The notes below the pieces were generated by a model. That model was not told where the DNA came from and searched no databases. It was given only the letters and a program-made list of their open reading frames with translations. DNA of 64,000 bases from Ornithinibacillus caprae (GTDB lineage: Bacteria; Bacillota; Bacilli; Bacillales; Amphibacillaceae): contig NZ_WOCA01000002.1 of assembly GCF_009728145.1 (NCBI RefSeq), forward strand, positions 124,001 through 188,000. Reading direction: 5' to 3'. Shown piece by piece: positions 15,698 through 59,654 of the stretch. Position 1 is the first letter of the stretch. Each line of letters starts with the position of its first letter. The position numbers and the translations under genes are program-made.

Positions 15698-16150
15698 ATG
15701 CTAAAAACGAAGCAAAGAGCAAGATATAATAAGAGTATGCCCACGTGGGTAGAAAAAATGTATTGTAAAACTAGTTATGACGATAGGTGTGACGATAAGC
15801 GTCATGATGGGTGTCACGATAAGCGTCATGATAGGTGTCACGATAAGCGTCATGATAGGTGTGACAAATGTCCACAGTCAGAAAAGGGTCACGGTCCGTG
15901 TTGCAAAGAACCCATTCAATGTAATGCATTAGACCCGACAAACTGCCATCCCTTTAATCCCAATATACCTCGTACTCTTAGAGAAGTGTTATTAAGTTTA
16001 ATCAACGAACAAGTCCAAGTCACTACTCCGTTTGGACCGATCACAGGAACATTGCTAGTCGTCAAATGTGATTATATCGTAATTGTTGAAGCTTCTGGAG
16101 CACAGGTACTGGTTCCTATTGATAAAATTGAGCTTGTCAGTGAATTATAA
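15698..16150 (+). CDS. Cys/His-rich spore-coat-like protein with DUF2642-type domain
   Basis: 150 residues from the ATG at 15698, nine bases after AAGGAGG. Residues about 26-55 contain three copies of an 8-residue unit (CHDKRHDR and variants) encoded by a 24-base tandem repeat. Eleven Cys residues lie in the first two thirds. The C-terminal 60 residues (EVLLSLINEQVQVTTPFGPI.. then VVKCDYIVIVE) look like an Sm-like beta barrel of the DUF2642 type, found in spore coat proteins of Bacillaceae. It likely sits in the spore coat, cross-linked through Cys, and the His/Asp repeats could bind metal (inference). The next gene encodes a related small barrel protein 13 bases on. Confidence 0.7.
   Translation: MLKTKQRARYNKSMPTWVEKMYCKTSYDDRCDDKRHDGCHDKRHDRCHDKRHDRCDKCPQSEKGHGPCCKEPIQCNALDPTNCHPFNPNIPRTLREVLLSLINEQVQVTTPFGPITGTLLVVKCDYIVIVEASGAQVLVPIDKIELVSEL
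15787..15858 (+). repeat. three tandem 24-base repeats inside the coat-like gene
   Basis: Units at 15787-15810, 15811-15834 and 15835-15858. The last two are identical; the first differs at a few bases. A further partial unit lies on each side. Each unit encodes eight residues, so copy-number changes keep the frame. Confidence 0.9.
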
Positions 16151-16163
16151 AGGAGGGATATAA

Positions 16164-16376
16164 ATGTTTGAAGAAACATTTGTTGAAGAACTTGCTACGC
16201 GTATTGGATCGAGAGTTGAAATAGCTACAGATAACAATTTTATAGAGGGGATTCTTTCAACTGTTACAGAAGAATTGGTTCTAGTTATTGAAGTTAGCAA
16301 TGGTTATGGATCAAGCACCATAATGTACATTGCGGTAGATGCTATTAACTTTGTTCGTTTTCCTGTAGCAGCATAA
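16164..16376 (+). CDS. small DUF2642-like coat-associated protein
   Basis: 70 residues, ATG after AAAGGAGGG. It reads FVEELATRIGSRVEIATDNN, then ELVLVIEV and YIAVDAINFVRFP: the same strand pattern (length-limited Sm-like barrel) as the C-terminal domain of the preceding protein, with no Cys. It is probably co-transcribed with that gene and made in the mother cell during sporulation (inference). A strong terminator follows at once. Confidence 0.7.
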   Translation: MFEETFVEELATRIGSRVEIATDNNFIEGILSTVTEELVLVIEVSNGYGSSTIMYIAVDAINFVRFPVAA

Positions 16377-16580: not shown

Positions 16581-17732
16581 ATGGTCAATCAACCATATGG
16601 TGGAAGATTAATTAATCGTGAATTAACCGGAATTGAAAGGGATGAGGCGGTTAGGAATGCTGAAAACCTTAAGTCAATAACCATAAATTCCTGGGTGATT
16701 TCTGATATGGAAATGATAGGGACAGGTGGATACAGTCCTCTGACAGGATTTATGGGACAGGTTGATTATGAAAATGTCCTTAAGAATACACGTCTAGCGG
16801 ACGGTATGATTTGGAGCATTCCTATTACACTCCCGTCGACTGAAGAAGAGGCTAAAAATCTTAACATCGGTGAACAAATTGCCCTAAAAGGAAAAGATGG
16901 CATTATCTATGGAACAATTAACCTGGCCGAGAAATATGAATATGATAAAAAGAAGGAAGCGCAATGTATCTATGGGACGACTAGTGTGGCACATCCAGGT
17001 GTGAAGAAAGTCTATGATAAAGGAAATATATATCTTGGTGGGTCGATTACACTTCTTAATCGTCCGGATCACAGTCAGTTTGCTTCGTATTATATGGCTC
17101 CAGTTGAAACACGGCGGGTGTTTGAGGACCTGGAATGGAAAACAATCGTTGGCTTCCAGACACGTAATCCGATTCACCGTGCGCATGAACATATTCAAAA
17201 GACAGCGCTTGAGTCTGTAGATGGCTTGCTATTGAACCCGCTTGTCGGTGAAACGAAATCTGATGATATTCCGGCAGTTGTCCGAATGGAAAGCTATCAA
17301 ATGATTTTAGATAACTATTATGTGAAAGATCGAGTACGCCTTGTTATCTATCCGGCGGCCATGCGATATGCAGGACCGAAAGAGGCGATTCTGCATGCAA
17401 TTGCTCGAAAAAACTATGGCTGCACACATTTTATTGTTGGACGTGATCATGCAGGTGTAGGTGATTACTATGGCACATATGAAGCTCAAAAGCTGATAGC
17501 TCAATATGAAAAAGAACTCGGCATTCAGATTTTCAAATTTGAACATTCGTTTTACTGCAATGTCTGTGAAAATATGGCATCCATAAAAACATGTCCACAC
17601 AAAAAGAAAAATCATGTCCACTTGAGTGGTACAAAGGTGCGTGAACTGGTCCGTAATGGCATACGTCCGCCAAAGGAATTCTCACGTCCGGAAGTTGCAG
17701 ATGTGCTGATCAGAGGAATGCAGAAAGATTAA
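16581..17732 (+). CDS. sat: sulfate adenylyltransferase (ATP sulfurylase)
   Basis: 383 residues, close to the 382 of B. subtilis Sat; ATG seven bases after GGGGG. Key motifs: [15 protein letters not shown] near residue 195 with the HxxH of the nucleotide site, [12 protein letters not shown] near 287, and the [10 protein letters not shown] phosphate loop near 350. A CxxC..C..H set ([17 protein letters not shown]) near 325-340 is a zinc-like knuckle found in the bacterial and archaeal short form. It makes adenosine phosphosulfate (APS) from ATP and sulfate. The next genes are a sulfate-type permease and APS kinase, so the product is carried on to PAPS. The three genes are visibly richer in G+C than the flanks. 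Confidence 0.96.
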
Positions 17733-17800
17733 GGTAGGCTGTTCAGAAAGGCCAATATTCTTTCTTATTGAATACGAATTAAAAAGGGATTTGATATCCT

Positions 17801-19579
17801 ATGACGTTAGAGATGATGTTTGTTCTGACTTTACTGATGACTATGTTTGCCATGCTGTTCTTTGAAGTTGCCCGGCCTGACATGGTTATTTTTTCTGTAT
17901 TGGTTATATTATTGTTGTCTGGCATCTTAACGGTTAATGAGGCATTAAGTGGTTTTTCCAATGAAGGGATGCTGACGGTCGCATTATTGTTCATCATTGC
18001 AGGAGCTATACAGAAGAGCGGGTTGATAGATAAATTGATAAAAAAATGGCTTCAGAATAGCCATACTCACACAGGGTCGCTGATGCGCATTCTTGTACCG
18101 ACATCTTTGTTTTCGGCTTTTCTAAACAATACGCCGATTGTTGTGACATTAACACCAATAATTAAGAAATGGTGCGAAGATCGAGGAATTGCTCCTTCCA
18201 AGTTTTTGATCCCATTATCATATGCCGCGATTTTGGGCGGGATGATAACAATCATGGGAACGTCTACAAACCTTGTCGTTCATGGCTTAATGCTTGAATT
18301 CGGAATGGAAGGTTTTTCATTATTCACATTTACTGTCGTTGGTATTCCGGTTGCACTCATCGGACTCATTTATTTATTTACAATCGGATATAAATTGCTA
18401 CCGGATAACAAAGGTTTTGACCAGCGGATTAAGGAAGATTCCAAAGAATATATTGCTGAAATAGTGGTGAAAAAAGATTTTGGTCATCTCGGCAGGCGTG
18501 TCGAGCAAGCCGGCCTGCGTGATTTGAGGGGTCTTTACCTGATTGAAATAATCCGCGGCGATGAACGGATTTCGCCGGTTAGGTCAACAACTGTTATCCA
18601 AAGTGGTGACCGACTTATTTTTGCTGGCTTGATTTCAACCATTGCTGACTTGCAGAAAATAAAAGGTCTGGAGCTGGAAACAGGAACGAACATAGAGCTT
18701 GATGATCTTAAGGATGGATCGATCAATTTAGTGGATGCAGTTGTTTCAGATCAATCTTCACTTTTATTTAAGTCAATTAAAAAGTCGAAGTTCCGCTCAC
18801 GGTATGATGCAGGTGTCATTGCAGTACATCGGAATAATGAGCGGATCAGGAGCAAGATCGGTGACATCGTTTTAAGGCCCGGGGATTCCTTGCTGCTTGT
18901 AGCGGGCGCTGACTTTGTCGCCAGATATCAGCAATCGAATGACTTTTTTGTTGTGTCGCCATTGGATACACCGGCTGCTTTGTATCAGAGTACTAAGAAA
19001 GGCTGGTTTTCTATTATCATACTACTCGTGATGATTGTAACGGTGACATTGGGGTGGCTCAACATGTTTAAAGCGATGGCACTGGCAGTTTTGTTATTGT
19101 TGACATCGAAAAGCATCACACCTCAGGAAGCTAAGGAATATGTTCATTTTAATGTATTGTTATTGATTGCCAGTTCGCTTGGAATTGGTACTGCCATGAG
19201 GAAAACGGGTCTTGCAGAGTGGATAGCTGCCGTCCTGTTGGATTTTGGCAAGCCATTAGGATTATTTGTCATTCTATTTATAATCTACATCTTAACAAAT
19301 CTGTTTACTGAGATTGTCACCAACAGTGGAGCAGCCGTCATAATGCTACCGATCGGGATTGAAATGGCGAATTCCCTTGCTGTCGAGCCGATGGGGATGG
19401 CTGTTCTAATTGCGATAGCTGCTTCGGCAAGTTTCACCACACCAATCGGTTACCAGACGAATATGATTGTGTATGGTCCCGGTGGCTACAAGTTTACGGA
19501 TTACGTGAAAGTTGGGCTTACGCTTAGCCTCTTAGTAATGTTGACATCAGTTTTTATTATTTATTATGTATGGTTTTAG
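17801..19579 (+). CDS. SLC13/SAC1-type permease with two TrkA-C domains, probable sulfate transporter
   Basis: 592 residues; ATG preceded by AAAAAGGGA. Two blocks of hydrophobic helices (about 1-205 and 395-592) bracket two soluble TrkA-C (RCK_C) domains at about 215-385, the architecture of SLC13-related anion permeases such as SAC1/SLT of algae and CysP-like bacterial proteins. The conserved loops FLNNTPIVVTLTPI and TNSGAAVIMLPI are present. The place between sat and cysC points to sulfate as substrate (inference from context). It ends 12 bases before cysC, so it is in the same operon. Confidence 0.88.
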   Translation: MTLEMMFVLTLLMTMFAMLFFEVARPDMVIFSVLVILLLSGILTVNEALSGFSNEGMLTVALLFIIAGAIQKSGLIDKLIKKWLQNSHTHTGSLMRILVPTSLFSAFLNNTPIVVTLTPIIKKWCEDRGIAPSKFLIPLSYAAILGGMITIMGTSTNLVVHGLMLEFGMEGFSLFTFTVVGIPVALIGLIYLFTIGYKLLPDNKGFDQRIKEDSKEYIAEIVVKKDFGHLGRRVEQAGLRDLRGLYLIEIIRGDERISPVRSTTVIQSGDRLIFAGLISTIADLQKIKGLELETGTNIELDDLKDGSINLVDAVVSDQSSLLFKSIKKSKFRSRYDAGVIAVHRNNERIRSKIGDIVLRPGDSLLLVAGADFVARYQQSNDFFVVSPLDTPAALYQSTKKGWFSIIILLVMIVTVTLGWLNMFKAMALAVLLLLTSKSITPQEAKEYVHFNVLLLIASSLGIGTAMRKTGLAEWIAAVLLDFGKPLGLFVILFIIYILTNLFTEIVTNSGAAVIMLPIGIEMANSLAVEPMGMAVLIAIAASASFTTPIGYQTNMIVYGPGGYKFTDYVKVGLTLSLLVMLTSVFIIYYVWF

Positions 19580-19591
19580 GGGGACACGTTT

Positions 19592-20200
19592 ATGGATAAA
19601 TCAGCAAATATTGAATGGCACCGTTCGAAAGTAACGAAAGAAGATCGAAGGCATTTGAATCATCATAATAGTTTCGTGGTGTGGTTCACTGGCCTGTCCG
19701 GTTCCGGCAAGTCGACTATTTCGGTGGAGGTGGAAAAGGAACTGCATAATATGGGTGTCCGGACGTATCGTTTGGATGGCGACAATATCCGCCACGGTCT
19801 GAATAAAGATCTTGGTTTCAGCCCGGAAAACAGGAAAGAAAATATCCGTCGTATCGGGGAAATATCCAAGTTGATGGTTGAGGCAGGATTGGTTACATTG
19901 TGCGCTTTCATTTCACCGTATCGAGAAGATCGTGATGAAATACGTAAATTGCTGAATGCTGGTGAATTTATCGAGGTGTTTGTAGATGCGAGCATAGGAA
20001 CGTGTGAATTACGGGATCCAAAAGGACTTTATAAAAAAGTACGCGACGGCGAGATTAAAGGGTTTACAGGGATTGATTCACCATATGAAGCACCGGTGGC
20101 CCCGGAAATCACGTTGGATACTGATATACAGAGCATTGAGGAATCGGTACAGACAATCGTGTCATATTTGAAAACGAAAGGATACCTGCAATATGAGTGA
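19592..20200 (+). CDS. cysC: adenylyl-sulfate kinase
   Basis: 202 residues, the usual length. The P-loop GLSGSGKST is near residue 34, followed by [18 protein letters not shown] (the APS-binding DGDN motif), ENIRRIGE and the lid segment [11 protein letters not shown]. It phosphorylates APS to PAPS in the cytoplasm. PAPS can feed assimilation or sulfotransferases; no PAPS reductase is visible in this window, whereas a sulfotransferase lies 4 kb on. An ATG for a broken downstream gene overlaps the cysC stop. Confidence 0.96.
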
Positions 20201-20551
20201 TGTGAGCTTAAAGACAATGCTGGATACATCATTGGATGTCAGCCGGGAGATTTTGTACGTCTATGATTGGGGATTTTCGGTTGAGAAGAAAGAAGGCGAC
20301 TCACCTCTGACAGAATCTAACATGCGCTAGAAGCGTATTACTTCAGGCAGTTCAGTCTGGGAGCGTTTAGATTGGAAGATGCGTCACGTGTGAATTTGGC
20401 TGATGATAGGGCGCTGACTGTGCAAAATGTACGCCTACCGGTTACGGACCCGGGTGTCGCTGTCAATGTGGTTGTGAGTCGCACCCACATGTCGGGAGAA
20501 ACCGATGTATTTATTGAAGAATGGTTGATTTTTAGTCAAGCGGTGAATTAA
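20194..20551 (+). pseudogene. broken gene coupled to cysC, family unknown
   Basis: The ATG at 20194 overlaps the cysC stop. The frame reads [19 protein letters not shown] and DWGFSVEKKEGDS, then stops at 20328. Another frame carries FRQFSLGAFRLEDASRVN, then NVRLPVTDPGVAVNVVV and ends EEWLIFSQAVN-stop at 20551. Codon use is like cysC, so this was one gene of the operon, broken by at least one frameshift. I do not recognise the family. Confidence 0.55.
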
Positions 20552-20628
20552 TAGCTATATTTACAGGGCAGGTGATTTGTCCTTTTTAACCAGAAAGTAT
20601 ATAATTTTGGCTCTATAAAGCTCTTTGC

Positions 20629-20860
20629 CAGCAAGAGCTACGTCCAGCTACAGCGCCCATCACCTAGCGCCCTTCCGGACTCTTCTTACGATAAAGAAGA
20701 CTTGCCGATTGGTGAAACCAGAGGCTTAGTCGCACTTATACCCTTGTGGTGAAAGTCAACATCAATTCGCTTTGCTCATTGTGTTTTCTTTATCTCATAT
20801 GACTCCGTCCGGGTCATACGGTGGTAAGCAGGGCGCTTGCGCTTTTGTTTTGGTAGGTGC
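20629..20860. repeat. dispersed intergenic repeat of the Bacillaceae type
   Basis: A 230-base non-coding block, clearly richer in G+C than its surroundings, with complementary ends (AGCGCCC near 20653 and GGGCGCTTGCGC near 20840) and an inner hairpin TGACTCCGTCCGGGTCA. I recall closely similar blocks between genes in many Bacillaceae genomes; that it is repeated in this genome is inferred, since only one copy lies in the window. Confidence 0.5.
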
Positions 20861-21386
20861 CCCCTAAATAAACCACTCCACCTTTAAGCACCGACTATCA
20901 AGTAAATATTATATAGTCCATAACTATAAAAAGAAACCTGGATAATATAGGACAGGTTAAACTTTGTATAGAAAAAGTTGATCCTTTTCGGCATCATTAC
21001 AATGGAGATTCAATGTAAATGACGGCAAATTCTCGTTCCGGCTGGTCGTCCATTAATATCGATACTCCCTCGGATATTTTACGACGATACGGGTGCACAT
21101 TATGATTAAAGGATTATATTCTCTTATAAGACGGTTTCCTTATGACATTTTGGACTCACAGCAAATGCCTCTTTTGCCTTTACTTAAACGTGTATCATGT
21201 ACAATCTATTATTTTTTTCATAAATTGAGGTATAACCAATTCGAACTTATTAAAAACGGTTATCTAACAGGTATAAACGAACCAATTTTAGTAGAATTCC
21301 TGAACTACAAGTCATCAACCGTGTTCGAATGCGTCTATTAATGATTATAAAGAATGGGCATTAACACTAGAGGGAGTTGTTTAAAT
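20861..21386. other. intergenic region with small remnants
   Basis: On the minus strand 21098-20997 reads KISEGVSILMDDQPERE and ends YIESPL-stop, a plausible C-terminal remnant of a lost gene. On the plus strand a frame of 82 codons (21093-21341) has no ribosome binding site and no motif; I do not annotate it as a gene. The promoter of the following dehydratase gene should lie in the last 150 bases but I cannot assign boxes. Confidence 0.4.
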
Positions 21387-22394
21387 GTGTTTAAAAATAC
21401 CACAATATTGATTACTGGAGGGACAGGGTCCTGGGGACATGAACTCGTCAAAAAGCTGCTTTTATCTCAACCAAAGGAAATTAGAATCTTTTCACGCAAT
21501 GAATTTGCTCAGGTGAAGATGAAAAGAAAGTTTTCAGATAATCCTTGTTTAAAATTTCTGATTGGTGACGTAAGAGATTTTGAAGCAGTGAACGAAGCTG
21601 CAAAAAATGTCGATTATATATTTCACCTTTCGGCACTCAAACACGTACCAATATGTGAAGACCAGCCTTTAGAAGCGTTAAAAACCAATGTACATGGTAC
21701 GGAGAATGTTATCAAAGCAAGTTTAAATCAAATGGTTAAAAAAGTCATTGATGTTTCAACAGATAAAGCTGTTGAACCAATCAATTTCTATGGACTTACG
21801 AAAGCGATTGGTGAAAAGCTAATCATTCAGGCTAATCAATTAAGCAATCATACACGTTTTCTCTGTATCCGCGGTGGAAATGTGATAGGAACAAATGGAA
21901 GTGTGATCCCTTTTTTTAAAGAACAGATTGCATGCAATCATACAGTTCCCCTTACATCCAGGGAAATGACACGCTTCTTTCTGACTGTTTCTCAAGCCAT
22001 TGATTTACTGCTACACGCATCCGAACAAGCAATTGGCGGCGAAACATTTGTTATGAAAATGAAAGCATGCGAGATTGTCGATTTGATTGGTGTTCTAGAA
22101 AGACATTTTGCAGCAAAAGATATTGTTATAAATGAGACTGGGATACGTCCAGGTGAGAAACTCCACGAGGTTTTAATATCAAATGCCGAATCGCGGAACA
22201 CTTATAAATTTGATGAAAATTATTATGTCATTTTACCTGACAATGCTTCAGAGGATTTGAAGAAAAAATATACAAATTTACCAAAGGTCTCCTTCACCCG
22301 ATATCAATCCAATGATGAATTAATGTCTTCAGGAGAAATTGAAGACATTCTAATGAAAGCAAATATCCTCACGTCAAGCTCTTTTTCAACGTAA
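21387..22394 (+). CDS. UDP-N-acetylglucosamine 4,6-dehydratase-like enzyme (CapE/PseB/FlaA1 type)
   Basis: 335 residues from a GTG at 21387, ten bases after AGAGGGAG; this gives the family's normal beginning MFKNTTILITGGTGSWG. The NAD(P)-binding loop is GGTGSWG, STDKA and YGLTK give the catalytic D-K and Y-K pairs of the extended SDR dehydratases, and IRGGNVIGTNGSVIPFF is the typical core. These enzymes remove water from UDP-GlcNAc to make 4-keto-6-deoxy sugars for surface glycans. A CapF homologue, the next enzyme of the UDP-FucNAc route, lies at 25025. No CapG-type epimerase is in the window. The gene stands alone on the plus strand. Confidence 0.85.
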   Translation: MFKNTTILITGGTGSWGHELVKKLLLSQPKEIRIFSRNEFAQVKMKRKFSDNPCLKFLIGDVRDFEAVNEAAKNVDYIFHLSALKHVPICEDQPLEALKTNVHGTENVIKASLNQMVKKVIDVSTDKAVEPINFYGLTKAIGEKLIIQANQLSNHTRFLCIRGGNVIGTNGSVIPFFKEQIACNHTVPLTSREMTRFFLTVSQAIDLLLHASEQAIGGETFVMKMKACEIVDLIGVLERHFAAKDIVINETGIRPGEKLHEVLISNAESRNTYKFDENYYVILPDNASEDLKKKYTNLPKVSFTRYQSNDELMSSGEIEDILMKANILTSSSFST

Positions 22395-22548
22395 CAATAG
22401 AGGTGTGACTCAAAAGGTAGTCAAAATATCTCCAAATAGTCCTTATCATTATAATTGTGGTAAGGGATTTTAAAAAGATAAGAAGTATAAAAATTTAACT
22501 CTACCATGGGACTTGTGCCTGTGGTGTTTTTATTATAAGGAGAAAAAT

Positions 22549-22944
22549 ATCCTCAAACGAATCTTTTTTAATGAACATGAACATTGGCCAGCATTTAAAA
22601 GAAAATATGGAGATCGAATCCGTCCCATTGTCATCAAAGAGGTTGAGAAATTTCTTGATTGTGGAAATACCCAAAATGGATTCAAGCTCTTTGAATGTGA
22701 ATGTTGCTGTGATGTCCGGAACGTTCTTTTGTAAGGGGGGTTTTTGTACCACCTGTTCTGGTGGTGAAAGTGAAGAATGAAGCCTTATTCTCACGGAGGA
22801 TGTATTGCAGGTAAACCGTCGTCATGATCCACTTGTGTGTCCACATTGCGACAATTATTATGAGTACAAGGGAGAAGTCTGTCTTGAGGATGGTAAATTG
22901 AAAATCAAAATAGCTTTATCAAAGGAAGCAAGAAGGAGAGGGTG
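22549..22944 (+). pseudogene. relic of an IS91-family transposase
   Basis: The first part reads ILKRIFFNEHEHWPAFKRKY, then VIKEVEKFLDCGNTQNGFKL and a Cys-rich zinc segment, with a frame change near 22731 leading to FCKGGFCTTCSGG. This is the N-terminal zinc-binding domain of IS91-type transposases. It jumps straight to a C-terminal piece (HDPLVCPHCDNYYEYKGE.. ending ALSKEARRRG-stop), so the catalytic Y-rich core is deleted. Confidence 0.75.
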
Positions 22945-23008
22945 ATTTACTATCACGCGGAGCAACAAACGAGGCAAAAAAGGAAAGAAAAAGAAAGGAA
23001 CCGAGCAC

Positions 23009-23224
23009 TTGCGTTCTAAGAAGACGAATGTCATTTTGCATTGTTTAACGTGTCATAAGGAAGAGAAAATTCCTTATAACGTAGTTAAAGATTTCGATCT
23101 GATGGATGGAGGAAATCCTAGTACCCCACCAAGATCCACGGGTGAACAATGTGGAGGAGAGATGTATCCACAGTACTATAAAGGAATACATGGCCACGAA
23201 CATAAACTATCGGATATTCTCTAG
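23009..23224 (+). CDS. small Cys-containing ORF associated with the IS91 relic
   Basis: About 71 codons from TTG 23009; the frame is open back to 22945 with a very Lys-rich start and no clear ribosome binding site. It contains LHCLTCHKEEKIPY and later GEQCGGEMYPQYYKG, so a C-x2-C pair and one further Cys, perhaps a zinc ribbon that has lost a ligand. It follows the IS91 transposase relic closely and ends before a terminator, so it probably belongs to the element. Function unknown; may be dead. Confidence 0.45.
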   Translation: MRSKKTNVILHCLTCHKEEKIPYNVVKDFDLMDGGNPSTPPRSTGEQCGGEMYPQYYKGIHGHEHKLSDIL

Positions 23225-23239
23225 ACTCAATAGACAGAA

Positions 23240-23270
23240 AAGGACCGGGCAGTTTTTGCCCGGTTTTTCT
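23240..23270. terminator. bidirectional terminator between convergent genes
   Basis: ACCGGGCA and TGCCCGGT with a 5-base loop, followed by TTTTTCTT on the plus strand. It separates the IS91 relic from the CgeB-like gene. Confidence 0.8.
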
Positions 23271-23281
23271 TATATCCCCTT

Positions 23282-24208
23282 CTATAAAACGCTTTTTATC
23301 TGCCGGACTAATTGTCTTGCCCGATGAGCGGTTGAATGATGATTATGAACTAAGCGGTGCCCCTTTTCAGTGATTCTTTCCCGCTCTTGAGTATTGTTTA
23401 AATAGTATTCAGCCCTTTCTGAAAAGTTTTCCTCGTTTATATCTACAAAATGCTCGCCTGGTATTAAGCCAACCTCCTTAAGTTCCGGTAAATCAGGAGC
23501 CATTAGTAATGTGCGACATGCAGGGACTTCAAAATATTTGAATGTCACAACTTGACGAACAGAACCGCATGCAAAAAAAAGTTTTGCCTTATTAATAGTC
23601 CTGGCATAGTTTTCACCGATCAATGACTTTTCTGCCTGTTTCGTTGTAAAATCCCGCCATCCCGGATGAGGACGATTATAAAACCCGGGGGTATCTTTAT
23701 AATGCTGTAATATTTTTTCTCTTAATGGATAGATTTGCGGAAGCGAGACCTCTCCCAGCATCATCAAATTGATCGTTTTCTCATCACCGTAATCTTTAAA
23801 GATGGAGGTATTGGCAAATTGAGGAAGGAAGAAAACCTGATTATGCCTCTGACCGGGATAATAGTTGTAAAAATTATGCCGACATATTACAAAGAATATT
23901 CTAATATTGTTATTCAAAATATACCTTCTTCGCTGTTCCACAAACCGGTGTGCGTCGTTTACCATCAGTCCCACAGGTATGTCGATATCGGCTAAGCCGG
24001 TAACGATAGGTGCAAATGTTTTCTTTATATCATTTACTAGTAAGATGAAATCGGGCTTATAGGGAAACTTCCTTAATATCTTGCTAATATGGCCCGATTT
24101 TCGATAAACCATCAGGTGCGTTATTTCCGCTAATTCCTTCTCCAATACATCATAGTTATTATTTGTAAAAGTAGATGTATCTGCTGCAATAAGCAGTAAC
24201 TTCAGAAT
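23282..24208 (-). CDS. CgeB-like glycosyltransferase, probable spore maturation protein
   Basis: About 308 residues. The protein pattern requires a start at 24208 (LKLLLIAADTSTF.. is the normal first strand), but the codon there is ATT, not ATG. GGAAGGAG lies ten bases upstream, so initiation at ATT or at the following CTG is likely; the first TTG at 24145 has no site. The C-terminal half (PGFYNRPHPGWRDF, then GSVRQVVTFKYFEVPACRTL and LIPGEHFVDIN) is the Glyco_trans_1_2 / CgeB domain. In B. subtilis CgeB is made late in the mother cell and affects the spore surface. It follows the sulfotransferase in the same direction, behind a hairpin at 24234-24263. Confidence 0.78.
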   Translation of the reverse strand: MLKLLLIAADTSTFTNNNYDVLEKELAEITHLMVYRKSGHISKILRKFPYKPDFILLVNDIKKTFAPIVTGLADIDIPVGLMVNDAHRFVEQRRRYILNNNIRIFFVICRHNFYNYYPGQRHNQVFFLPQFANTSIFKDYGDEKTINLMMLGEVSLPQIYPLREKILQHYKDTPGFYNRPHPGWRDFTTKQAEKSLIGENYARTINKAKLFFACGSVRQVVTFKYFEVPACRTLLMAPDLPELKEVGLIPGEHFVDINEENFSERAEYYLNNTQERERITEKGHRLVHNHHSTAHRARQLVRQIKSVL

Positions 24209-24233
24209 TGCTTATTCACTCCTTCCAGGAAGT

Positions 24234-24263
24234 TAAAAACGCCTTCTGATATTGAAAGGCGCT
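24234..24263 (-). terminator. hairpin between sulfotransferase and cgeB-like gene
   Basis: On the minus strand GCGCCTTTC pairs with GAAGGCGT and runs into TTTTTAAC. There is no room for a promoter before the next ribosome binding site, so it would act as a partial terminator inside the operon. Confidence 0.6.
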
Positions 24264-24270
24264 TACTTTA

Positions 24271-25020
24271 CTAAGTTGAAATTTCGTATCCTAATCTTGT
24301 TAATGCTGTGTGAAACTTTTGGTTGATCTGCTTCTGCTGATTTTGATTTAAAACAGATTTCCATTTATTCGCCTTGCCTTCTCTCACAAAAGGCATTTTA
24401 GGATTAACAAACGGTGAGTTGCCGTTAAGATGGATACTTTGTTTCTTCTCCAATGCTTTCATATTATCAAAAGATGCCCAATCAACGGCTTCGTTGATTT
24501 CCTCTTCGGTTCTGTCCAAGTTTAAGAATTTTATAATCCTGTGCGCATTTTTAGAAGTGTTTACAAGAAGATCCTCATATTTAATAAGCAGAAAACCCTT
24601 TTTAACCTTATCTCGATTGTCAAGCCAGCTTTCCACATTCTTATCCCATGGACCAGCAGGACCGATAGATCCTTCCATAAATGCATCGAAGAAATCATCA
24701 AAATTCCGTGGATCAGCGTAATACTTCCGATTATGATGATGATAAGAAATAACGATATCTCTGGGATCTCTTACCAGATAAATAACCTTTGGATATGTTG
24801 GATCATAGCCTTCATGGCTCCATACAAGATGTGGAGAGGGTAGGCCTTTTATCGGCTCGGTGGCAACGTTTTGAATCATTTTCCCTTTTGTCGACCAATC
24901 TATTTTAGTCTTATACAATAGGGTGGCAACAAGAAATAACAGGAAATTATTTCCTGATTTAGGGTAGGAAACCAAACAAATATCATCTTCCTGAACTATA
25001 TAATTCTGATTCTCTGACAT
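24271..25020 (-). CDS. PAPS-dependent sulfotransferase
   Basis: 249 residues from the ATG at 25020, after AAAGGATGA; four bases separate it from the capF stop. The 5'-phosphosulfate loop reads SYPKSGNNFLL (Lys near 21), and the 3'-phosphate motif YLVRDPRDIVISYHHH (Arg near 84, Ser near 92). The C-terminal FVREGKANKWKSVLN gives the RKGxxGDWK-like element. This is the full set of the Sulfotransfer_1 family; there is no signal peptide, so it is cytosolic. It moves sulfate from PAPS to an acceptor hydroxyl or amine. Such enzymes are uncommon in Bacillaceae. Neighbours (capF, cgeB-like, GT61, GT2) suggest a glycan or sugar-nucleotide acceptor, and the sat-cysC unit would supply PAPS. Confidence 0.9.
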   Translation of the reverse strand: MSENQNYIVQEDDICLVSYPKSGNNFLLFLVATLLYKTKIDWSTKGKMIQNVATEPIKGLPSPHLVWSHEGYDPTYPKVIYLVRDPRDIVISYHHHNRKYYADPRNFDDFFDAFMEGSIGPAGPWDKNVESWLDNRDKVKKGFLLIKYEDLLVNTSKNAHRIIKFLNLDRTEEEINEAVDWASFDNMKALEKKQSIHLNGNSPFVNPKMPFVREGKANKWKSVLNQNQQKQINQKFHTALTRLGYEIST

Positions 25021-25024
25021 AAAA

Positions 25025-26167
25025 TCATCCTTTCTTTTGATCATTTTCCCTATTATGGACCTCCAAGTAATAGGTATCTGGATTATCCGGATTAAAAAGC
25101 TCATTAGCCCAGAACAGAACAATTATTTCATCATATGTTATATTTTCAATCGAATGAGTATACCCTGGGGGAATATCCACAACTTGAATGTTTTGGTCTG
25201 AAACAATGTAAGTGATTACATCATCTGAATCGATGTTTCTTAATTTAATGCTTGCTTTTCCTTTAATAACACAAAACTTTTCCACCTTTGTATGGTGATA
25301 ATGATTTCCCCTTATGACTCCTTTTCGTGATGTTGACATAAATATTTGACCAGCTTGGTGCGATTTGATTAATTCAACCAGACTACCCCTTTCATCTTCA
25401 TACGCAGGCAAATTATATGAGAAGTTGTTCGTGTCTAAATAGGATAAATAGGTGGTGTATAAATACTTAGTAAGCTTTTCGGACAAGTCTGGTATAATCA
25501 ACGACTCTCTCATATCCCTTATTTTATAAAGGGTATGAGCTAGTTCACCTACCGTAATATGAAAAGTTTGTTTGGTATGATAATAAAATGTTTCTTCTGA
25601 TTTTTCTTGGTGCAGACATTCCAAAAAGCTATCCACTACATCGTCTATATATACAAGCTCAAGCACTTTGTCGGGATCATGGATATCTATATCGTTGCCA
25701 TGCGTAATTTCATGACAAAACGTAGCAACAACTGAATTATAATGAGGCTTACACCACTTGCCAAAGACACCCGGAAGCCGGTAGATTTTTACATCTGCAC
25801 CAGTGTCTTTACCAAAATTTTTCAATACTTCTTCAGCGTCCTTTTTACTTAAACCATAAGGTGTATTTAACTCTGCTTGCGCTGAAGATGAAAAAACGAT
25901 TGTTGGAGTCTTTTGCTGGTCACTTAAATAGTTGACAATAGACTGAGTAAGCCCTTTATTAACTCTTGCAAATTCTTCGTTATGCTTAGGTCGGTTTACC
26001 CCCGCCAGATGATAGACTACATCCGCATTACTTAAATGCTGATAGAGCTGTGACAGGTCATCTCCGCGATAATATTGATTGACGATAATACCCTTTTTTC
26101 TATGCAATCTATCAACTAGATTTTTACCAATAAATCCCCCTGCACCGGTTACCAATACATTAATCAT
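25025..26167 (-). CDS. capF: CapF-type UDP-sugar 4-reductase with C-terminal cupin
   Basis: 380 residues; ATG after AAAGGAGTG. The N-terminal short-chain dehydrogenase domain (1-250) has GAGGFIGK at residue 8 and Y104-x3-K108 (YGLSK). The C-terminal cupin domain (about 260-370) has RGNHYHHTKVEKFCVIKG, giving the metal-binding His/Glu set. This two-domain build is specific to CapF/WbjC, which in Staphylococcus aureus epimerises (cupin) and reduces (SDR) the CapE product on the way to UDP-L-FucNAc. It is the first gene of the operon capF - sulfotransferase - cgeB-like. A CapE-like gene lies at 21387 on the other strand. Confidence 0.92.
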   Translation of the reverse strand: MINVLVTGAGGFIGKNLVDRLHRKKGIIVNQYYRGDDLSQLYQHLSNADVVYHLAGVNRPKHNEEFARVNKGLTQSIVNYLSDQQKTPTIVFSSSAQAELNTPYGLSKKDAEEVLKNFGKDTGADVKIYRLPGVFGKWCKPHYNSVVATFCHEITHGNDIDIHDPDKVLELVYIDDVVDSFLECLHQEKSEETFYYHTKQTFHITVGELAHTLYKIRDMRESLIIPDLSEKLTKYLYTTYLSYLDTNNFSYNLPAYEDERGSLVELIKSHQAGQIFMSTSRKGVIRGNHYHHTKVEKFCVIKGKASIKLRNIDSDDVITYIVSDQNIQVVDIPPGYTHSIENITYDEIIVLFWANELFNPDNPDTYYLEVHNRENDQKKG

Positions 26168-26223
26168 TTCATGTCACTCCTTTCCGTTTACAGTTAAAAT
26201 CCTAACACTATTGAGGATTCTTC

Positions 26224-26236
26224 TACATATTATGTA
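26224..26236. promoter_or_regulatory. palindromic divergent promoter element, mother-cell sigma type
   Basis: TACATATTATGTA is a perfect 13-base palindrome midway between capF and the GT61 gene. Each strand contains CATAnnnT (CATATTAT and CATAATAT), the -10 consensus of sigma E/K promoters. The -35 boxes are not convincing. A shared sporulation promoter is an inference. Confidence 0.4.
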
Positions 26237-26293
26237 ATACTCCAAAAGATGTGTAAAAATAGGGCAGGTTAACCATAGGAAAGGAGATTAGGT

Positions 26294-27394
26294 ATGTCAG
26301 ATTTATATATCCGCACAAAGGATTGGATTGAAAAAAATACCCCGGAGTCAGATATACAAAATGTTTATAAGGAGTTTTATACAAATGAAACTATAAAATA
26401 TACTCAACCAAAAGGGGATCCACCACAATGGGTTGATTGGGTAAATCCACTATTGTTCGAAAAAAATTATAAGTTTAGTGAATCTTATGTTTCTAAGATA
26501 GAAAATGGAAGTGTATGGATGTGTAATAATGGGGAAGGTATAGTTTATGCATTGACACCTGATCGCAAGTGTTTGCAAGATATGGTTTTTCATTTATATT
26601 GGCCATTTTTTAAAAAGCAGGCAGTTAAGAAAATCCCTTCTGCATTATACTATAATGGAAATTTAGGGGTTCTAGCCTGGGCAGGGCATACCAATTATTG
26701 GCATTGGTTACATGATACGTTGGGACGTTTTCATTTACTTCAACTCAGCGGTTTTAGGATCGATAAATATGTTCTTCCGCCTTTGACATTGCCTTTCCAG
26801 CGGGAAACGGTTAAAATGCTTGGCATCCCTGAAGAAAAAATTTTGCAACTTACTCCAGGAAAGCACCTACAGGCTAAAAATTTGATATTGCCTTCCGTTC
26901 CGTTTAACACTGGGACATGTGTGAAGTGGACAGTTGAATTTCTTAGGGACTCATTTCTTAAATCAAAATCCCATACAAGCTCATTAAATTTTGAACGTAT
27001 CTATATCAGCCGGGAAGATGCCTCGTGGAGAAAGGTTTCCAATGAACCTAAACTCATGACAGTTTTAAACAAAAAAGGATTCAGAAAAGTTACTTTGAGC
27101 TCCTTAACCGTACAGGAACAAATTGATATTTTTTCTTCAGCCAAAGTTATCATAAGTTCGAATGGTGCCGGTCTTGCAAATATTATGTTCTGTCAGCCGG
27201 GAACGAAAATCATTCAGTTATTTACTTCAACATCAGACGAATTCATAAAAATTGGGCAGTATTTAGGTTTGGATTATCGTTTTTTGAAGTGCAGGATTGC
27301 GAATCCCGCATCCAAAGCACATGAAGTCCTACAAAACATTGTGGTTGATGTGAAAAAATTATCAAGGATTCTGGAAGATGAGGGGATAAATTAG
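26294..27394 (+). CDS. GT61-family (DUF563) glycosyltransferase
   Basis: 366 residues; ATG after GGAAAGGAG. The conserved GT61 parts are clear: NYWHWLHDTLGRFHLL (the HW..D/E segment), RIYISREDASWRKVSNE (the R..SR.. segment), and the C-terminal SSNGAGLANIMFCQPG. The family transfers sugars such as xylose or GlcNAc in eukaryotes; bacterial members occur in capsule and spore-surface loci. No signal peptide; cytosolic. It is divergent from capF and probably shares its control. Confidence 0.88.
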   Translation: MSDLYIRTKDWIEKNTPESDIQNVYKEFYTNETIKYTQPKGDPPQWVDWVNPLLFEKNYKFSESYVSKIENGSVWMCNNGEGIVYALTPDRKCLQDMVFHLYWPFFKKQAVKKIPSALYYNGNLGVLAWAGHTNYWHWLHDTLGRFHLLQLSGFRIDKYVLPPLTLPFQRETVKMLGIPEEKILQLTPGKHLQAKNLILPSVPFNTGTCVKWTVEFLRDSFLKSKSHTSSLNFERIYISREDASWRKVSNEPKLMTVLNKKGFRKVTLSSLTVQEQIDIFSSAKVIISSNGAGLANIMFCQPGTKIIQLFTSTSDEFIKIGQYLGLDYRFLKCRIANPASKAHEVLQNIVVDVKKLSRILEDEGIN

Positions 27395-27749
27395 TTATTA
27401 GAAGTCTACTTTTGCATGAACAATTAAGTAGTCCCTGATAAAATTAGGTAAGGAGTCAAATTAAAGCTACAGTTGACTTTTGATTAATTTATCGAGGAAG
27501 GGATTTAGGTACACTGCATGTGCTGATGAAACCCCATAGGCTCTTTTTACCGCTTATGATGAAGCGCCTCCATTAATAGGACACGAGCAAGGTCAAAGTT
27601 AGACATGGAGGAGGGTTTATTGATTACTTTTATTAAAGAGTAGGGGCATTACTATTTCCCCTTCGTTATTTGTTCCAAAACAAGTCAACATTATATCAAC
27701 AGTAAAAAAACCTTAGCAATCAATGGATGAAAAACATCCATTGTGCTAT
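27395..27749. other. intergenic region between GT61 and GT2 genes
   Basis: Convergent gap of 355 bases. It contains the GT2 terminator at 27703-27743 and no credible reading frame. A 12-codon frame MEEGLLITFIKE near 27606 has no start signal. Confidence 0.5.
27703..27743 (-). terminator. terminator of the GT2 gene
   Basis: CAATGGATG and CATCCATTG form a hairpin with a 5-base loop; on the minus strand a GGTTTTTTTA run follows about 13 bases later. Confidence 0.55.
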
Positions 27750-29033
27750 TTAATTTGAATTGAATGTTTTTATAAAATCATTCCACTTCGAGTCGTTATA
27801 TTTCGTGATGCTTTCCATATGTTCCCGGACATTATAAACAGTAAAGTCATGATAACGAAACTGAGAGGTCTTTATTAACCTGAATAACACACTTACGTCT
27901 TCATAAAGCCTTCCATTTTCAAACTCGATTACCGGAAATCCCCCTTCTTCCTTTAAAGTTGAGGTTCGGTATACTCTTGGTCCAAGTGGAAAACGATAAG
28001 TTAGTAATTGAGTCACCCCATTGATGGGGATTCCTTTGGCAACCCCTTTAAAGAGCACATCCCCATCTAATTGCTTCCACTTTCTGAGATTTCCATACAA
28101 AACGGAAAAATCCTTAGGAAGGTATGCCAAGTAATTTTTAATAATGGAAACAGCATCAGGATCAAGCCAATCATCAGCATCAAGCTCCAGAATAAAGTCA
28201 GACTTCACATGTAATAATAATTCGTTTAAAGCTCTTGCTTTTCCCCCATTCTTTTTTTTAAATACTTTAACCTGTTTCCCGTCATCCCATTGTTGTAGTT
28301 GTGAAAAGGAATTGTCCGTAGATCCATCATCAATGATTAGTACCTGTTCAAATTGTTCACTTTGTAAAAGACAAGAGACAATGGCAGTTTCTACATACTT
28401 CCCCATATTAAAATGTGAGATCATAACAGATACCGTTGGGTATTCCTTTTTGACTTTTTGTAGTTGGTACTTCTGTATAAATTTTTCCTTTTCGATGGTA
28501 TTGGTAAAACTATTTTTCCTTGCTTGCCTTACTAAGTTATCTTTAATTAGTTGACGGGAGTCTCCTACATTTGAAAGCCAAGCTGGAAAAAGGGCCTCTT
28601 TGAAGGGTAGTTGGTGGTTTGACAAGAACTTTTTTCTTTTAAGAAAAGAGGTACAGACTAATAATGGGAAATGGATAACACTGTTCCGATTATGATGCAA
28701 GGTTACTAAAACTATTTTTTTATGGGAAAGCTGTAGGGAATCGGTATTTATAGTTGGAGAAAGGTAGTCCGTACTCTGAAGAAATAATACGTAAGGTGAG
28801 GATAAACAATAAATGGTATCATTCAGTATTTGCCCTGGGCCATTAACCCCACTATCTAAAAATTCAATTTGATCAAACCAATCATAGCCGTGTATCATAT
28901 CTATAGACATTCCTTGTTCCAGGATAACAATAATAGATTTCAACCTAGATTTAATTTTTTTTAAAGAGTTTAAAGCCTTTTGTAGCACGCCCAGATCAGT
29001 ATAGTGAACAAGGATGGCGGTTACATCTTTCAA
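27750..29033 (-). CDS. GT2-family glycosyltransferase with extra N-terminal domain
   Basis: 427 residues from TTG 29033, eight bases after GGAGGG. Residues about 1-200 resemble a degenerate GT2 fold (VTAILVHYTDLGVLQKAL..FLDSGVNGPGQILND) lacking a DxD. Residues about 205-427 are a full GT2 domain: VSVMISHFNMGKYVETAI, IIDDGSTDNSF, NGGKARALNELL and ELDADDWLDPDAV, the last being the metal-binding DxD. It transfers an activated sugar, probably for the same surface glycan as its neighbours. Double-domain GT2 proteins of this sort occur in spore polysaccharide loci (inference). Confidence 0.85.
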   Translation of the reverse strand: MKDVTAILVHYTDLGVLQKALNSLKKIKSRLKSIIVILEQGMSIDMIHGYDWFDQIEFLDSGVNGPGQILNDTIYCLSSPYVLFLQSTDYLSPTINTDSLQLSHKKIVLVTLHHNRNSVIHFPLLVCTSFLKRKKFLSNHQLPFKEALFPAWLSNVGDSRQLIKDNLVRQARKNSFTNTIEKEKFIQKYQLQKVKKEYPTVSVMISHFNMGKYVETAIVSCLLQSEQFEQVLIIDDGSTDNSFSQLQQWDDGKQVKVFKKKNGGKARALNELLLHVKSDFILELDADDWLDPDAVSIIKNYLAYLPKDFSVLYGNLRKWKQLDGDVLFKGVAKGIPINGVTQLLTYRFPLGPRVYRTSTLKEEGGFPVIEFENGRLYEDVSVLFRLIKTSQFRYHDFTVYNVREHMESITKYNDSKWNDFIKTFNSN

Positions 29034-29507: not shown

Positions 29508-29617
29508 ACACCTGTAGCAACCCCTCAGGAGTAAGAACCTTAGAATCTGGCGGACCCACCTTTGGAAACAACCTCCGAAAGTTAGAGCTAATAAATCTAA
29601 CTTTCGGGATGTTTTTT

Positions 29618-29788
29618 ATGGCAAAATATAGTGAAGAGTTTAAAATGAAGTTTGTCGCCGAGTATTTAGGTGGAAACATGGCAAAAAATTTAATATGGGT
29701 AGCCAAACACCTATACGTGATTGGGTAAAATCGTATGAGTCTCAAGGAATGAATGGGTTAAAACGAAGAAAAAGGAAGAAAAGAAGTT
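29618..29788 (+). pseudogene. IS3-type orfA remnant
   Basis: Starts MAKYSEEFKMKFVAEYLGG, then a deletion and frame change give KKFNMGSQTPIRDWVKSYES and QGMNGLKRRKRKKRS-stop. The helix-turn-helix is shortened by roughly ten residues. Confidence 0.7.
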
Positions 29789-29789
29789 A

Positions 29790-30731
29790 ACTCGTGAAGA
29801 AGAGTTGGAACGCGAGAATGAACTACTAAGGCTAGAAAATGCATACCTAAAAAAGCTGAAAGCTTATCCGAATGCGTTCCACGGAAAGCACAAGCAAATG
29901 TGGCATTCGAACTCAAAGAAGAAGGATCCGATTAATAGATATTCTCGTTGTAGTATGCATTCCTGAAGCAACCTATCACTATCATGTGAAAAACTTTGAA
30001 ATAGAAGATCCGAACACAGAACTAAAAGCACTCATTACACACTTATTTAAGAAGTTTCATGAACGTTACGGTTATAAACGTATCACGAAAGAATTAAAGA
30101 AATTAGGACATCTTATCCATCATAAAAAAGTGTACCGAATCATGCGAGAACTAGGGTTAAAATGTGTGAAATTTATGAGGAAATCTCGCAAATACAATTT
30201 TTATAAGGGGAACGTTGGAAAAGTAGCGAAAAACCGATTATCCTGCCGTTTTAACACACCTATTCCTCTTCAAAAGCTAGTTACTGACAATACAGAATTC
30301 AAGTGTCTAGGTGAAGAGAAGTTATATTTAAATCAGATTCTTGACCTTTATAATGGAGAAATTGTTTCTTATGGTATCAAGAAAACGTTAGATCTTGTCA
30401 TGGAACCTTTAAAAGAAGCGATAGAGTTGATAGAGAATCGTGCAATCTATCGCACTACCACCCATTCCAATGGGTGAGGACATTAAAAGAAAATAAAATA
30501 TTCCAAAACATGTCACGAAAAGCAACCTGCGCAGACAATGCTTCGATGGAGAATTTCTTTGGTATTTTAAAGCAAGAAATGTATTATGGGGAAGAATTAG
30601 TAATCTATGAAGAATTAAAAAGACGGATTGAAGAATATGTCTACTGGTACAACCATGAACGATCAAAAGAAAAATTGGCTAGATTAAGTCCAGTAGAATA
30701 TAGAACTCAACCCAACCAATCAGCTGCATAA
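29790..30731 (+). pseudogene. IS3-type orfB transposase, inactivated
   Basis: The integrase-core transposase is readable: FHERYGYKRITKELKKLG, then LVTDNTEFKC with the first catalytic Asp, and after 30474 RKATCADNASMENFFGILK with the catalytic Glu. Between them the segment that normally reads HSDQGWQYQ is shortened to HSNG with a frame change at about 30470, so the second catalytic Asp is lost. The start region also has a frame change. Confidence 0.75.
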
Positions 30732-30896: not shown

Positions 30897-31487
30897 ATGG
30901 CTAAATGTAGAAATAACGGAAAGCTAAATAACGTAAAACTAAATAACGCAAAAGAGAGTACCATTGAAGATGACTGTGTATGTGGGGTAGTGAGAAGTAT
31001 TATTGAAGCACAAGATGCTATTATGGATGACGACTGCACAACCAGCTGTAACACGTCAATTCGGCAACTTTTGGCTCAAGGTTCAGGTAATGGACCAACT
31101 AACACCACCATACCAATTGTGCTTTATTGTGAAGGAACATGTAAGCCGTTTTTCGGCAGTGGTATCTTTCAGGGTATTACAGGAGACGGGGATAACTTCT
31201 TCGGGTGCGTCCAATCTCCGATTTTCAGGGCTAAAAACTTTGTAAAAGATAGCAAGTGCTGTGTAAAACTAGAACTATTATTACCAGTTGACGAGGAGGG
31301 AGATATCCAAGTCTGCGACGACCATGATGTTTGTTCTTATTTTCCATCGGATTGTGTGATTACAGATTTCCAGGCAACTGGTATCTGTATAACTGTGGAC
31401 TTGAAGCACTTTATGGGAGTAACTTGTTTGGATCCTGTTACTCCTATCCCTGCACACGAAGCTCTTTCGCCTACCGGGTATAGATAA
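30897..31487 (+). CDS. cotZ: spore coat protein of the CotZ/CotY family
   Basis: 196 residues; ATG after AGAAAGGAG. It has 15 Cys, spread as in CotY/CotZ: DDCVCGVVRSIIEAQDA near residue 26, CTTSCNTSIRQLL near 47, FFGCVQSPIFRAKNF, and the end SKCCVKLELLLPV.. FQATGICITVDLKHFMGVTC. CotY/CotZ self-assemble through disulfides into the crust (outermost coat) or exosporium base layer. Produced in the mother cell. It stands just after the IS3 relic, with its own promoter and two hairpins after it. Confidence 0.93.
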   Translation: MAKCRNNGKLNNVKLNNAKESTIEDDCVCGVVRSIIEAQDAIMDDDCTTSCNTSIRQLLAQGSGNGPTNTTIPIVLYCEGTCKPFFGSGIFQGITGDGDNFFGCVQSPIFRAKNFVKDSKCCVKLELLLPVDEEGDIQVCDDHDVCSYFPSDCVITDFQATGICITVDLKHFMGVTCLDPVTPIPAHEALSPTGYR

Positions 31488-35333: not shown

Positions 35334-35711
35334 AAAAAAACCTCCTAAATCAAATAGATTATTTGAATCAGAAGAATTTTGAATTAACTCTATGAAGTTT
35401 GAGTCATTCTCCATCCTTCAGCGGTTCAGCCACCATAGTAATTTGTTTACCGTAGGCCTGTAACTTTGCGTCTCCGTTTTTCAACTGGATTTGCCTTTTT
35501 CAAATGAGAAACGACTTTATTGTTCAACCGTCTATCATTTAACTACATAATAATACAAACTTTTAAAATTGTATATAGATAAAACTTTCCAAATGGGGTC
35601 GGTGTCACTTGTTGGGGGAAGTAGGGGGGGTATACAGGAAAAACAAAATCGGACTATAAACTAAAATGTGATCGAACGATTTAGTCCAGGTGAGCAGAAT
35701 GGCATTATTTC
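35334..35711. other. intergenic region between the DUF5667 gene and a Doc relic
   Basis: Contains the ribosome binding site and presumed promoter of the DUF5667 gene (minus strand) and one copy of the GTCGGTG..TGTCACTTGT dispersed repeat at 35598-35612. Nothing else is recognised. Confidence 0.4.
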
Positions 35712-59322: not shown

Positions 59323-59600
59323 ACAAAAAATCGTCCCTGTCGTAATTGTATAAACGACAGGGACGATTTCATCGCGGTACCACCCTTATTGTGAACTGAA
59401 AAACGTGTTCACCTCTCCATTATTGTTAACGATCAATGACCGTCTTTCTCATCGTAAAGATTCCTCCTTACTTCGAAAAAGAAGCTCCAGGATTGTAATT
59501 CATGCTTATCTATGACTGATTTACACCACCATCAGCTCTCTGCACAGGGAGATAAGGCACTACTTCGATCCATTCGTTGCTTTTGGAATTATTGAATTTT
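59323..59600 (-). promoter_or_regulatory. T-box leader, proximal copy (tyrosine type)
   Basis: The T-box AAGGGTGGTACCGCG is at 59373-59387 (minus strand) and the terminator hairpin (ATCGTCCCTGTCG with its complement, then TTTTTTG) at 59323-59370. Stem I on the 5' side carries GAAGTAGTGCC and the specifier region ATGAATTACAATCC; UAC (Tyr) is the best-placed codon. Uncharged tRNA-Tyr would favour the antiterminator. Confidence 0.9.
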
Positions 59601-59654
59601 TTGGTGACTGTCTTAAAAGATGGTAACTTACCTTGGGTGGTTAATGTTCCAACG

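Follow-up and report, generated by a model that had tools for sequence, protein, structure and literature searches.

A candidate spore-surface glycan sulfation cassette with its own sulfate activation genes in Ornithinibacillus caprae and related Bacillaceae

Introduction

Genes for making 3'-phosphoadenosine 5'-phosphosulfate (PAPS) that lie together with sulfotransferase genes in a polysaccharide cluster are regarded in one report as a hallmark of sulfated polysaccharide synthesis (PMC11641403). Such a combination is found in the 64,000-nucleotide stretch analysed here (the window: positions 124001-188000 of contig C22 of the Ornithinibacillus caprae genome, G000, 4.16 Mb in 40 contigs), in which sat, a permease gene and cysC lie near a sulfotransferase gene, genes of glycan synthesis and genes of spore crust or coat proteins. 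We consider it probable that this group of genes, hereafter the cassette, serves the sulfation of a spore-surface glycan.

The capsule cluster of Vibrio sp. KMM 8419 resembles the cassette in carrying second copies of cysC, cysN and cysD with sulfotransferase and glycosyltransferase genes (PMC11641403), and in Cobetia marina KMM 1449 cysN/cysC, cysD, cysQ and a sulfate permease gene share one cluster with sulfotransferases and glycosyltransferases, the four functions of this set being those of a CysD-CysNC-permease-CysQ module that we describe below from Oceanobacillus luteolus (PMC11766843). As far as the available portions of these two reports go, both are Gram-negative capsule loci with kps export, whereas the cassette occurs in spore formers, has coat genes as neighbours and sigma-K-like promoters, and has no exporter that was noticed. 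The synechan xss cluster of Synechocystis likewise has sulfotransferases among glycosyltransferases and yields a sulfated exopolysaccharide, as proposed for the cassette; the accessible text names PF00685, PF03567 and PF13469 and draws a link to saline habitats, but describes Wzx/Wzy export and a STAND regulator, mentions no PAPS genes and does not concern spores (PMC8205485). The Bacillus subtilis crust is like the cassette in its CotXYZ and CgeA proteins, its spore polysaccharide affecting adhesion and dispersal and its sigma-K-controlled spsM; it differs in that the sugars named in the part of the report available to us are rhamnose and galactose, and no sulfotransferase is mentioned there (PMC4191935). 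A search of the open-licence literature found no published report of a sulfated spore glycan. Clusters for sulfated polysaccharides are known, and a place for their product on spores would be new.

Results

Conservation of the cassette among relatives

Homologues of the window's sulfotransferase were sought in 295 relatives, the window's genome among them, and matches were obtained in 16 (the window's genome counted in). After a match in G253 was dropped (20.3 bits, 30% over about 107 residues), the window and 14 other genomes were left, and 20-kb stretches around all 14 other sulfotransferase genes were compared with the window by tblastn, giving 15 loci. The named carriers are Oceanobacillus luteolus, O. 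oncorhynchi, O. neutriphilus, O. sojae (two), O. jeddahense, O. rekensis and Oceanobacillus sp. CFH 90083, together with Lentibacillus halodurans, Lentibacillus jeotgali, Virgibacillus ndiopensis and Fictibacillus phosphorivorans (12 loci in all). The capF-like gene adjoins the sulfotransferase gene in 15/15 loci, the GT61 and PseB-like genes are present in all 15 (the latter only 41% identical in L035), and a cgeB-like gene is present in 14; capF, sulfotransferase and cgeB lie on one strand in 13/15. The original prediction had proposed a search for sat-permease-cysC near sulfotransferases in relatives, and this search found PAPS-making genes within the stretch in 13 of the 15 loci, that is, the hallmark combination in the window and in 12 of the 14 related loci, one of which, L028, is decayed, with sat interrupted and cysC truncated. 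Recurrence of this block outside the genus makes it more than a chance association.

CysQ is intact in 7/15 loci, behind cysC in L026 and L029-L033 and behind the permease gene in L024; tblastn did not find it in seven others and detected a remnant in the window. The intact relative of this remnant in L026 scores as CysQ (TIGR01331, 285.6 bits, cut-off 228.8).

CotX or CotZ was recognised in four of the 15 loci (CotZ in the window, CotX in L023, L024 and L027) and DUF2642-like genes alone in six more (L025, L030-L034); beyond the 15 loci, CotX is found in L144 and CotZ in L209. DUF2642-like genes neighbour CotX in L024, L027 and L144, a position that points to a spore role for DUF2642, and DUF2642-like b is kept in L024, L025, L027, L030-L034 and L144. 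The open-licence literature yielded no paper on DUF2642.

Separation of the cassette from sulfate assimilation

The original prediction stated that no PAPS reductase lies in the window, and named a PAPS reductase elsewhere as the possible true partner of cysC. A genome-wide search with PF01507 (the PAPS reductase family) gave a single match, CysH, on another contig (C13), in agreement with the statement. This cysH is not in the same operon or region as the window's sat-permease-cysC, but sits in its own complete cysH-cysP-sat-cysC operon, and the genome thus has two APS (adenosine 5'-phosphosulfate) kinases.

The occurrence of CysH was compared among 13 genomes with an intact cassette APS kinase, namely 12 with the window-type sulfotransferase and G041. 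This set left out G099 (cassette sat and cysC decayed; CysH present), G135 and G145 (cassette without PAPS genes; CysH present in both), G112, G118 and G054 (no window-type sulfotransferase) and other genomes with sat-permease-cysC but without the window-type sulfotransferase, such as G047 and G129. CysH was absent from six (G036, G085, G041, G147, G152 and G154), and in each of these the cassette APS kinase was the sole APS kinase match. The seven with CysH (G000, G016, G063, G134, G153, G158 and G269) each gave two or three APS kinase matches, all seven having an extra kinase near cysH. The association between CysH absence and a single APS kinase gave a Fisher p of 0.0006, a value that ignores kinship, four of the six genomes being Oceanobacillus. 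Among the six, CotX lies near the cassette in G085 and G041 and DUF2642-like genes alone in G147, G152 and G154, while no crust gene was found near it in G036.

Other PF01507 matches in the genomes without CysH were rejected as CysH, being QueC (G036), DndC and the cassette CysD (both G085) and TilS (G041); a second match in G036, at 20.6 bits, fell below the cut-off and was left unassigned. The DndC-type DNA phosphorothioation gene of G085 (L224) scores 604 bits and came up as a weak match in the PAPS reductase searches.

Replacement of PAPS genes and sulfotransferases in related loci

In G085 (O. luteolus) the place of Sat-permease-CysC is taken by a module of CysD (510.8 bits, cut-off 413), CysNC (834.1, cut-off 715), a permease and CysQ (273.9, cut-off 228.8), which lies beside capF-sulfotransferase-cgeB-like genes, two CotX genes and two DUF2642-like genes. 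Judged by its profiles, this module is a non-orthologous replacement. Independently of this, the sulfotransferase itself differs in L144 of G041, a genome of another genus: capF, a Sat-permease-CysC set of the same kind, two DUF2642-like and two CotX genes accompany two sulfotransferases of PF03567/PF06990, and G041 gave no match to the window-type sulfotransferase; enzymes of PF06990 (the galactose-3-O-sulfotransferase family) and PF03567 thus stand in place of the PF00685 one. L209 of G054 has DUF2642-like, GT2, CotZ, PseB-like and capF genes and a WecB-type epimerase gene. No sulfotransferase or PAPS gene was recognised in the L209 stretch and G054 gave no CysH match, this genome being outside the 219 with an APS kinase match. 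These arrangements indicate that the glycan locus occurs with and without sulfation genes, and that PAPS genes tend to accompany the sulfotransferase.

In a joined tree of Sat, permease and CysC from 27 loci, the sets from cassettes with either type of sulfotransferase fall together in one clade with a support of 0.58, which becomes 1.0 once the set of G118 is included. Sets from the genus of Lentibacillus surround this clade in the tree, and one of these lies next to genes that look by eye like cysJI.

PF00685 was matched in 78 genomes, and gene surroundings were taken for part of these. In five loci from other families of Bacillales (L170, L172, L173, L175 and L178), genes for PF00685-like sulfotransferases neighbour pseB-like and WecB-like ones, with a cgeB-like gene in four of the five and DUF2642-like genes also in L178; spore glycan sulfation may accordingly be wider than the carriers of the cassette. 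Polysaccharide-type loci with sulfotransferase-like genes and sat-permease-cysC-cysQ were seen in L155, L157 and L147 and possibly direct sulfated exopolysaccharides of growing Bacillales.

Sigma-K-like promoters

The window's genome encodes SigK (383 bits, cut-off 298.65). A sigma-K-like pattern, AC-N16/17-CATANNNT, was drawn from the consensus in the accessible parts of two reports (PMC517825 and PMC3789822) and sought within 250 bases upstream of genes in the window and L023-L034. It was found before capF and GT61 in 13/13 loci each and before the PseB-like gene in 12/13, compared with 9 of 297 control open reading frames (ORFs) outside the cassette, the cassette counts coming from related loci and hence not being independent. 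In the alignment, capF and GT61 use one CATAATATG read in both directions, with differing spacers. L144 also has an element on the capF side, and none was found before capF in L035 and L036. The sulfotransferase and cgeB genes have no element of their own (0/13 each) and both lie inside the capF run. The element was rare before DUF2642a (1/9) and GT2 (2/9) and was not found before DUF2642b (0/9) or CotZ (0/1).

A sigma-K-like promoter before sat was considered and rejected (0/11). A looser box, [CA]ATATRT[TA]A, precedes 8/11 cassette-type sat genes (ten from sulfotransferase loci and that of L144) against 2/18 other sat genes, which is suggestive only. A sigma-A pattern gave 0/11 and 0/18 at these genes and is too strict as a control, TATACT-like boxes being visible by eye in several of the 18. 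The promoter counts therefore suggest sporulation control for the glycan and sulfotransferase genes and not for the supply genes. Searches of the window, L026 and L029 for a riboswitch before sat gave no Rfam match at the gathering threshold.

The sulfotransferase and the predicted sugar product

YPKSGNN, WSH and RDPRD are invariant in 14 aligned sulfotransferases, the alignment also containing a VREGK/VRSGK-type motif with WKS, and these motifs align with the PAPS sites and the histidine of 4ifb, a bile salt sulfotransferase. The expectation that the enzyme carries both PAPS-binding motifs is thereby borne out. We take the motifs to be the 5'-PAPS loop, the catalytic histidine and the 3'-phosphate site; the active-site motifs are intact and the protein is predicted to be active. 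Comparison with relatives places the likely start at ATG 25020, four bases past the capF stop. A structure model with a mean pLDDT of 62.4 was not used. The B. subtilis control genome gave no match to PF00685.

The PseB/CapE-like and CapF-like enzymes together should give a uridine diphosphate (UDP)-activated 2-acetamido-2,6-dideoxy-L-hexose. The dehydratase scores 251 bits with the FnlA profile (cut-off 730) and 324 with PseB (cut-off 408), its best curated profile, and the reductase 417 with NF047837 (cut-off 500), all below their cut-offs. In the CapE-CapF-CapG pathway to UDP-L-FucNAc, CapG is a 2-epimerase. No CapG-type 2-epimerase was found among the profiled ORFs of the cassette, the search not extending to the rest of the genome, and the L-talo isomer is therefore as likely as L-FucNAc (N-acetyl-L-fucosamine). 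A WecB-type epimerase is present in L144, L207 and L209. UDP-FucNAc as the product, towards which the original prediction pointed, is consequently not supported, the CapE-like gene also scoring nearer to PseB.

The genes of the cassette were identified from ORFs and profile searches with curated cut-offs (Table 1), which placed sat, cysC and the sulfotransferase, capF, cgeB-like, CapE-like, GT61 and GT2 genes where they had been predicted. What had been called a sulfate-type permease is an anion permease (CitMHS with TrkA_C), generic by profile, and sulfate as its substrate is a presumption. Spore coat genes had been claimed on both sides; CotZ is clear on one, and on the other DUF2642-like a lies at the Pfam cut-off and b gives no significant Pfam match. 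The search queries for DUF2642-like a started at 15689. In B. subtilis, cgeAB and other sps genes belong to the spore polysaccharide system. At 24208 the window's cgeB-like gene carries ATT, preceded by AGGAG, at the point where the five relatives used for comparison show ATG, and this may be either a rare start or the mark of a weakened gene.

Table 1. Positions of the cassette genes, promoter elements and adjoining spore genes in the window
Feature	Position	Strand	Evidence
DUF2642-like protein a, probable spore crust/coat	15698..16150	+	PF10842 22.7 bits, at Pfam cut-off; in-frame ATG 15698
DUF2642-like protein b, a tandem relative of protein a that has diverged	16164..16376	+	aligns with protein a; no significant Pfam match
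sat, sulfate adenylyltransferase	16581..17732	+	NF003166 566 bits, cut-off 387
CitMHS/DASS-like anion permease with TrkA_C, presumed sulfate importer	17801..19579	+	PF03600 246, PF02080 61.1, PF00939 55.5 bits
cysC, APS kinase (makes PAPS)	19592..20200	+	TIGR00455 274.9 bits, cut-off 138.7
cysQ remnant (3'-phosphoadenosine 5'-phosphate (PAP) phosphatase)	20193..20521	+	two segments, 1-45 and 123-187 of 266 residues, each in its own frame; tblastn with intact relative
sigma-K-like element AC-N16-CATANNNT before PseB-like gene	21201..21226	+	position computed from offset -153
PseB/CapE-like UDP-N-acetylglucosamine (UDP-GlcNAc) 4,6-dehydratase	21354..22394	+	PF02719 319 bits; TIGR03589 (PseB) 324, cut-off 407.75
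cgeB-like glycosyltransferase (candidate CgeB relative)	23282..24208	-	PF13524 62.7 bits
PAPS-dependent sulfotransferase (predicted), 249 aa	24271..25020	-	PF00685 127.6 bits, cut-off 22
capF-like UDP-2-acetamido-2,6-dideoxy-hexos-4-ulose reductase	25025..26167	-	NF047837 416.9 bits (cut-off 500); PF14667 160.6 bits
divergent promoter region common to capF and GT61	26207..26252	both	sigma-K-like elements over one CATAATATG; computed from offsets; alignment
GT61 glycosyltransferase	26294..27394	+	PF04577 107.5 bits
GT2 glycosyltransferase	27750..29033	-	PF00535 79.9 bits
CotZ-family spore crust protein	30897..31487	+	PF10612 127.4 bits

Discussion

The gene identities given by profiles, the linkage across genera, the separation from sulfate assimilation and the sigma-K-like promoters of the glycan genes are observed. 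From these we infer a glycan as the acceptor, its structure and its sulfate, its location on the spore, and expression of the PAPS genes in the mother cell. During late sporulation, the PseB/CapE-like and CapF-like enzymes would supply the activated sugar in the mother cell, the GT61, GT2 and CgeB-like transferases would assemble the glycan, and the PF00685 enzyme would sulfate it. PAPS would be supplied locally, the permease bringing in sulfate, Sat forming APS and CysC converting it to PAPS. CysQ would clear PAP in some relatives, and, the window's CysQ being broken, another enzyme must do so here. The sulfated product would be displayed on the spore crust with the DUF2642-like, CotX and CotZ proteins. 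That the PAPS supply is dedicated to a sulfated spore glycan, as originally predicted, is supported by the separate CysH operon, the sole kinases, the sigma-K-like glycan promoters and the neighbouring genes; sporulation control of sat-permease-cysC did not emerge from the promoter counts.

Several observations weigh against spore glycan sulfation. No sigma-K-like element precedes sat (0/11), the permease gene (0/12) or cysC (0/12), and by tblastn two loci, L027 and L035, have the sulfotransferase and no PAPS-making genes in the 20-kb stretch. The stretches of L026, L028, L029, L035 and L036 revealed no crust gene, and in the six loci with DUF2642-like genes alone these are the sole spore pointer. 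G118 has capF, a PseB-like gene and the PAPS set, and lacks both CysH and the window-type sulfotransferase, other sulfotransferase families not having been searched there. The sat-permease-cysC-cysQ set also occurs in assimilation-type or other polysaccharide loci, and is therefore not diagnostic alone. The solved structures nearest to the sulfotransferase carry the names of bile-salt, alcohol and steroid sulfotransferases. Finally, the cassette is absent from all ten congeneric genomes that were searched besides the window's own. Fragments of insertion sequences lie within and beside it, namely parts of an IS91-type zinc domain at 22474-22734 and parts of an IS3-like transposase, with HTH_21 and rve, at about 29590-30730. 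Given these insertion sequence pieces and its absence from the ten congeners, the cassette looks acquired by the window's genome and in decay here at cysQ.

Several of these points would suit a product of growing cells, a sulfated capsule or exopolysaccharide, with the spore genes as mere neighbours, namely the lack of a sigma-K-like promoter at the PAPS operon and the sparse crust genes, and relatives have loci (L147, L155 and L157) that appear by eye to be of polysaccharide type and combine sulfotransferases with the same PAPS set. We nevertheless regard such a capsule as unlikely, in view of the sigma-K-like promoters on capF, GT61 and pseB and of CotX or CotZ in the window, L023, L024, L027, L144 and L209. 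Moreover, no Wzx/Wzy, ATP-binding cassette (ABC) or kps-type exporter was noticed by eye among the cassette ORFs, which were not searched with profiles for them; a product made in the mother cell may not need exporter genes. That the sulfotransferase acts on a soluble small molecule or nucleotide sugar instead of a displayed glycan would accord with its best relatives of known structure, which belong to the SULT kind and act on small molecules, but its place between capF and the cgeB-like gene on one strand in 13/15 loci, and the PF06990/PF03567 enzymes in the same place in L144, make this quite improbable.

A spare assimilation operon that came to lie near a sulfotransferase by accident could be imagined, as the window's genome has CysH and similar sets occur with cysH (L151-L153) or, by eye, cysJI-like genes (L139). 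That the sat set is this genome's assimilation operon was considered and rejected, since cysH there is accompanied by a separate sat and cysC; six genomes keep the cassette set without CysH, and in G085 the set is replaced by a non-orthologous one, so that an accidental neighbour is very hard to credit. Sulfation of a spore-surface glycan remains the reading that we prefer. In its wider form, we lean, with some reserve, towards the view that halophilic or marine Bacillaceae display a sulfated spore-surface polysaccharide by means of a patchily distributed cassette with its own sulfate import and PAPS synthesis, that some species keep sulfate activation only for this purpose and have no PAPS reductase, and that the trait has at least two origins, each with sulfotransferases of another family.

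If this is true, sulfated polysaccharides would be carried by bacterial endospores as well as by capsules and algal walls, and ideas on the charge of spores, on how they bind metals and on their dispersal in saline habitats would change. Sulfated glycans and sulfotransferases could also be obtained from a new source, and the presence of APS kinases in genomes that lack PAPS reductase, kinases that would otherwise be annotated as sulfate assimilation, would be accounted for.

Other features of the window

Two further regulatory elements were seen on the minus strand of the window. Two tandem T-box leaders (59356-59912) lie upstream of aroA-like, hisC-like and tyrA-like genes, so named by eye, and a cyclic diguanylate (c-di-GMP-I) riboswitch (35417-35505) lies directly upstream of a long acidic ORF (34053-35414).

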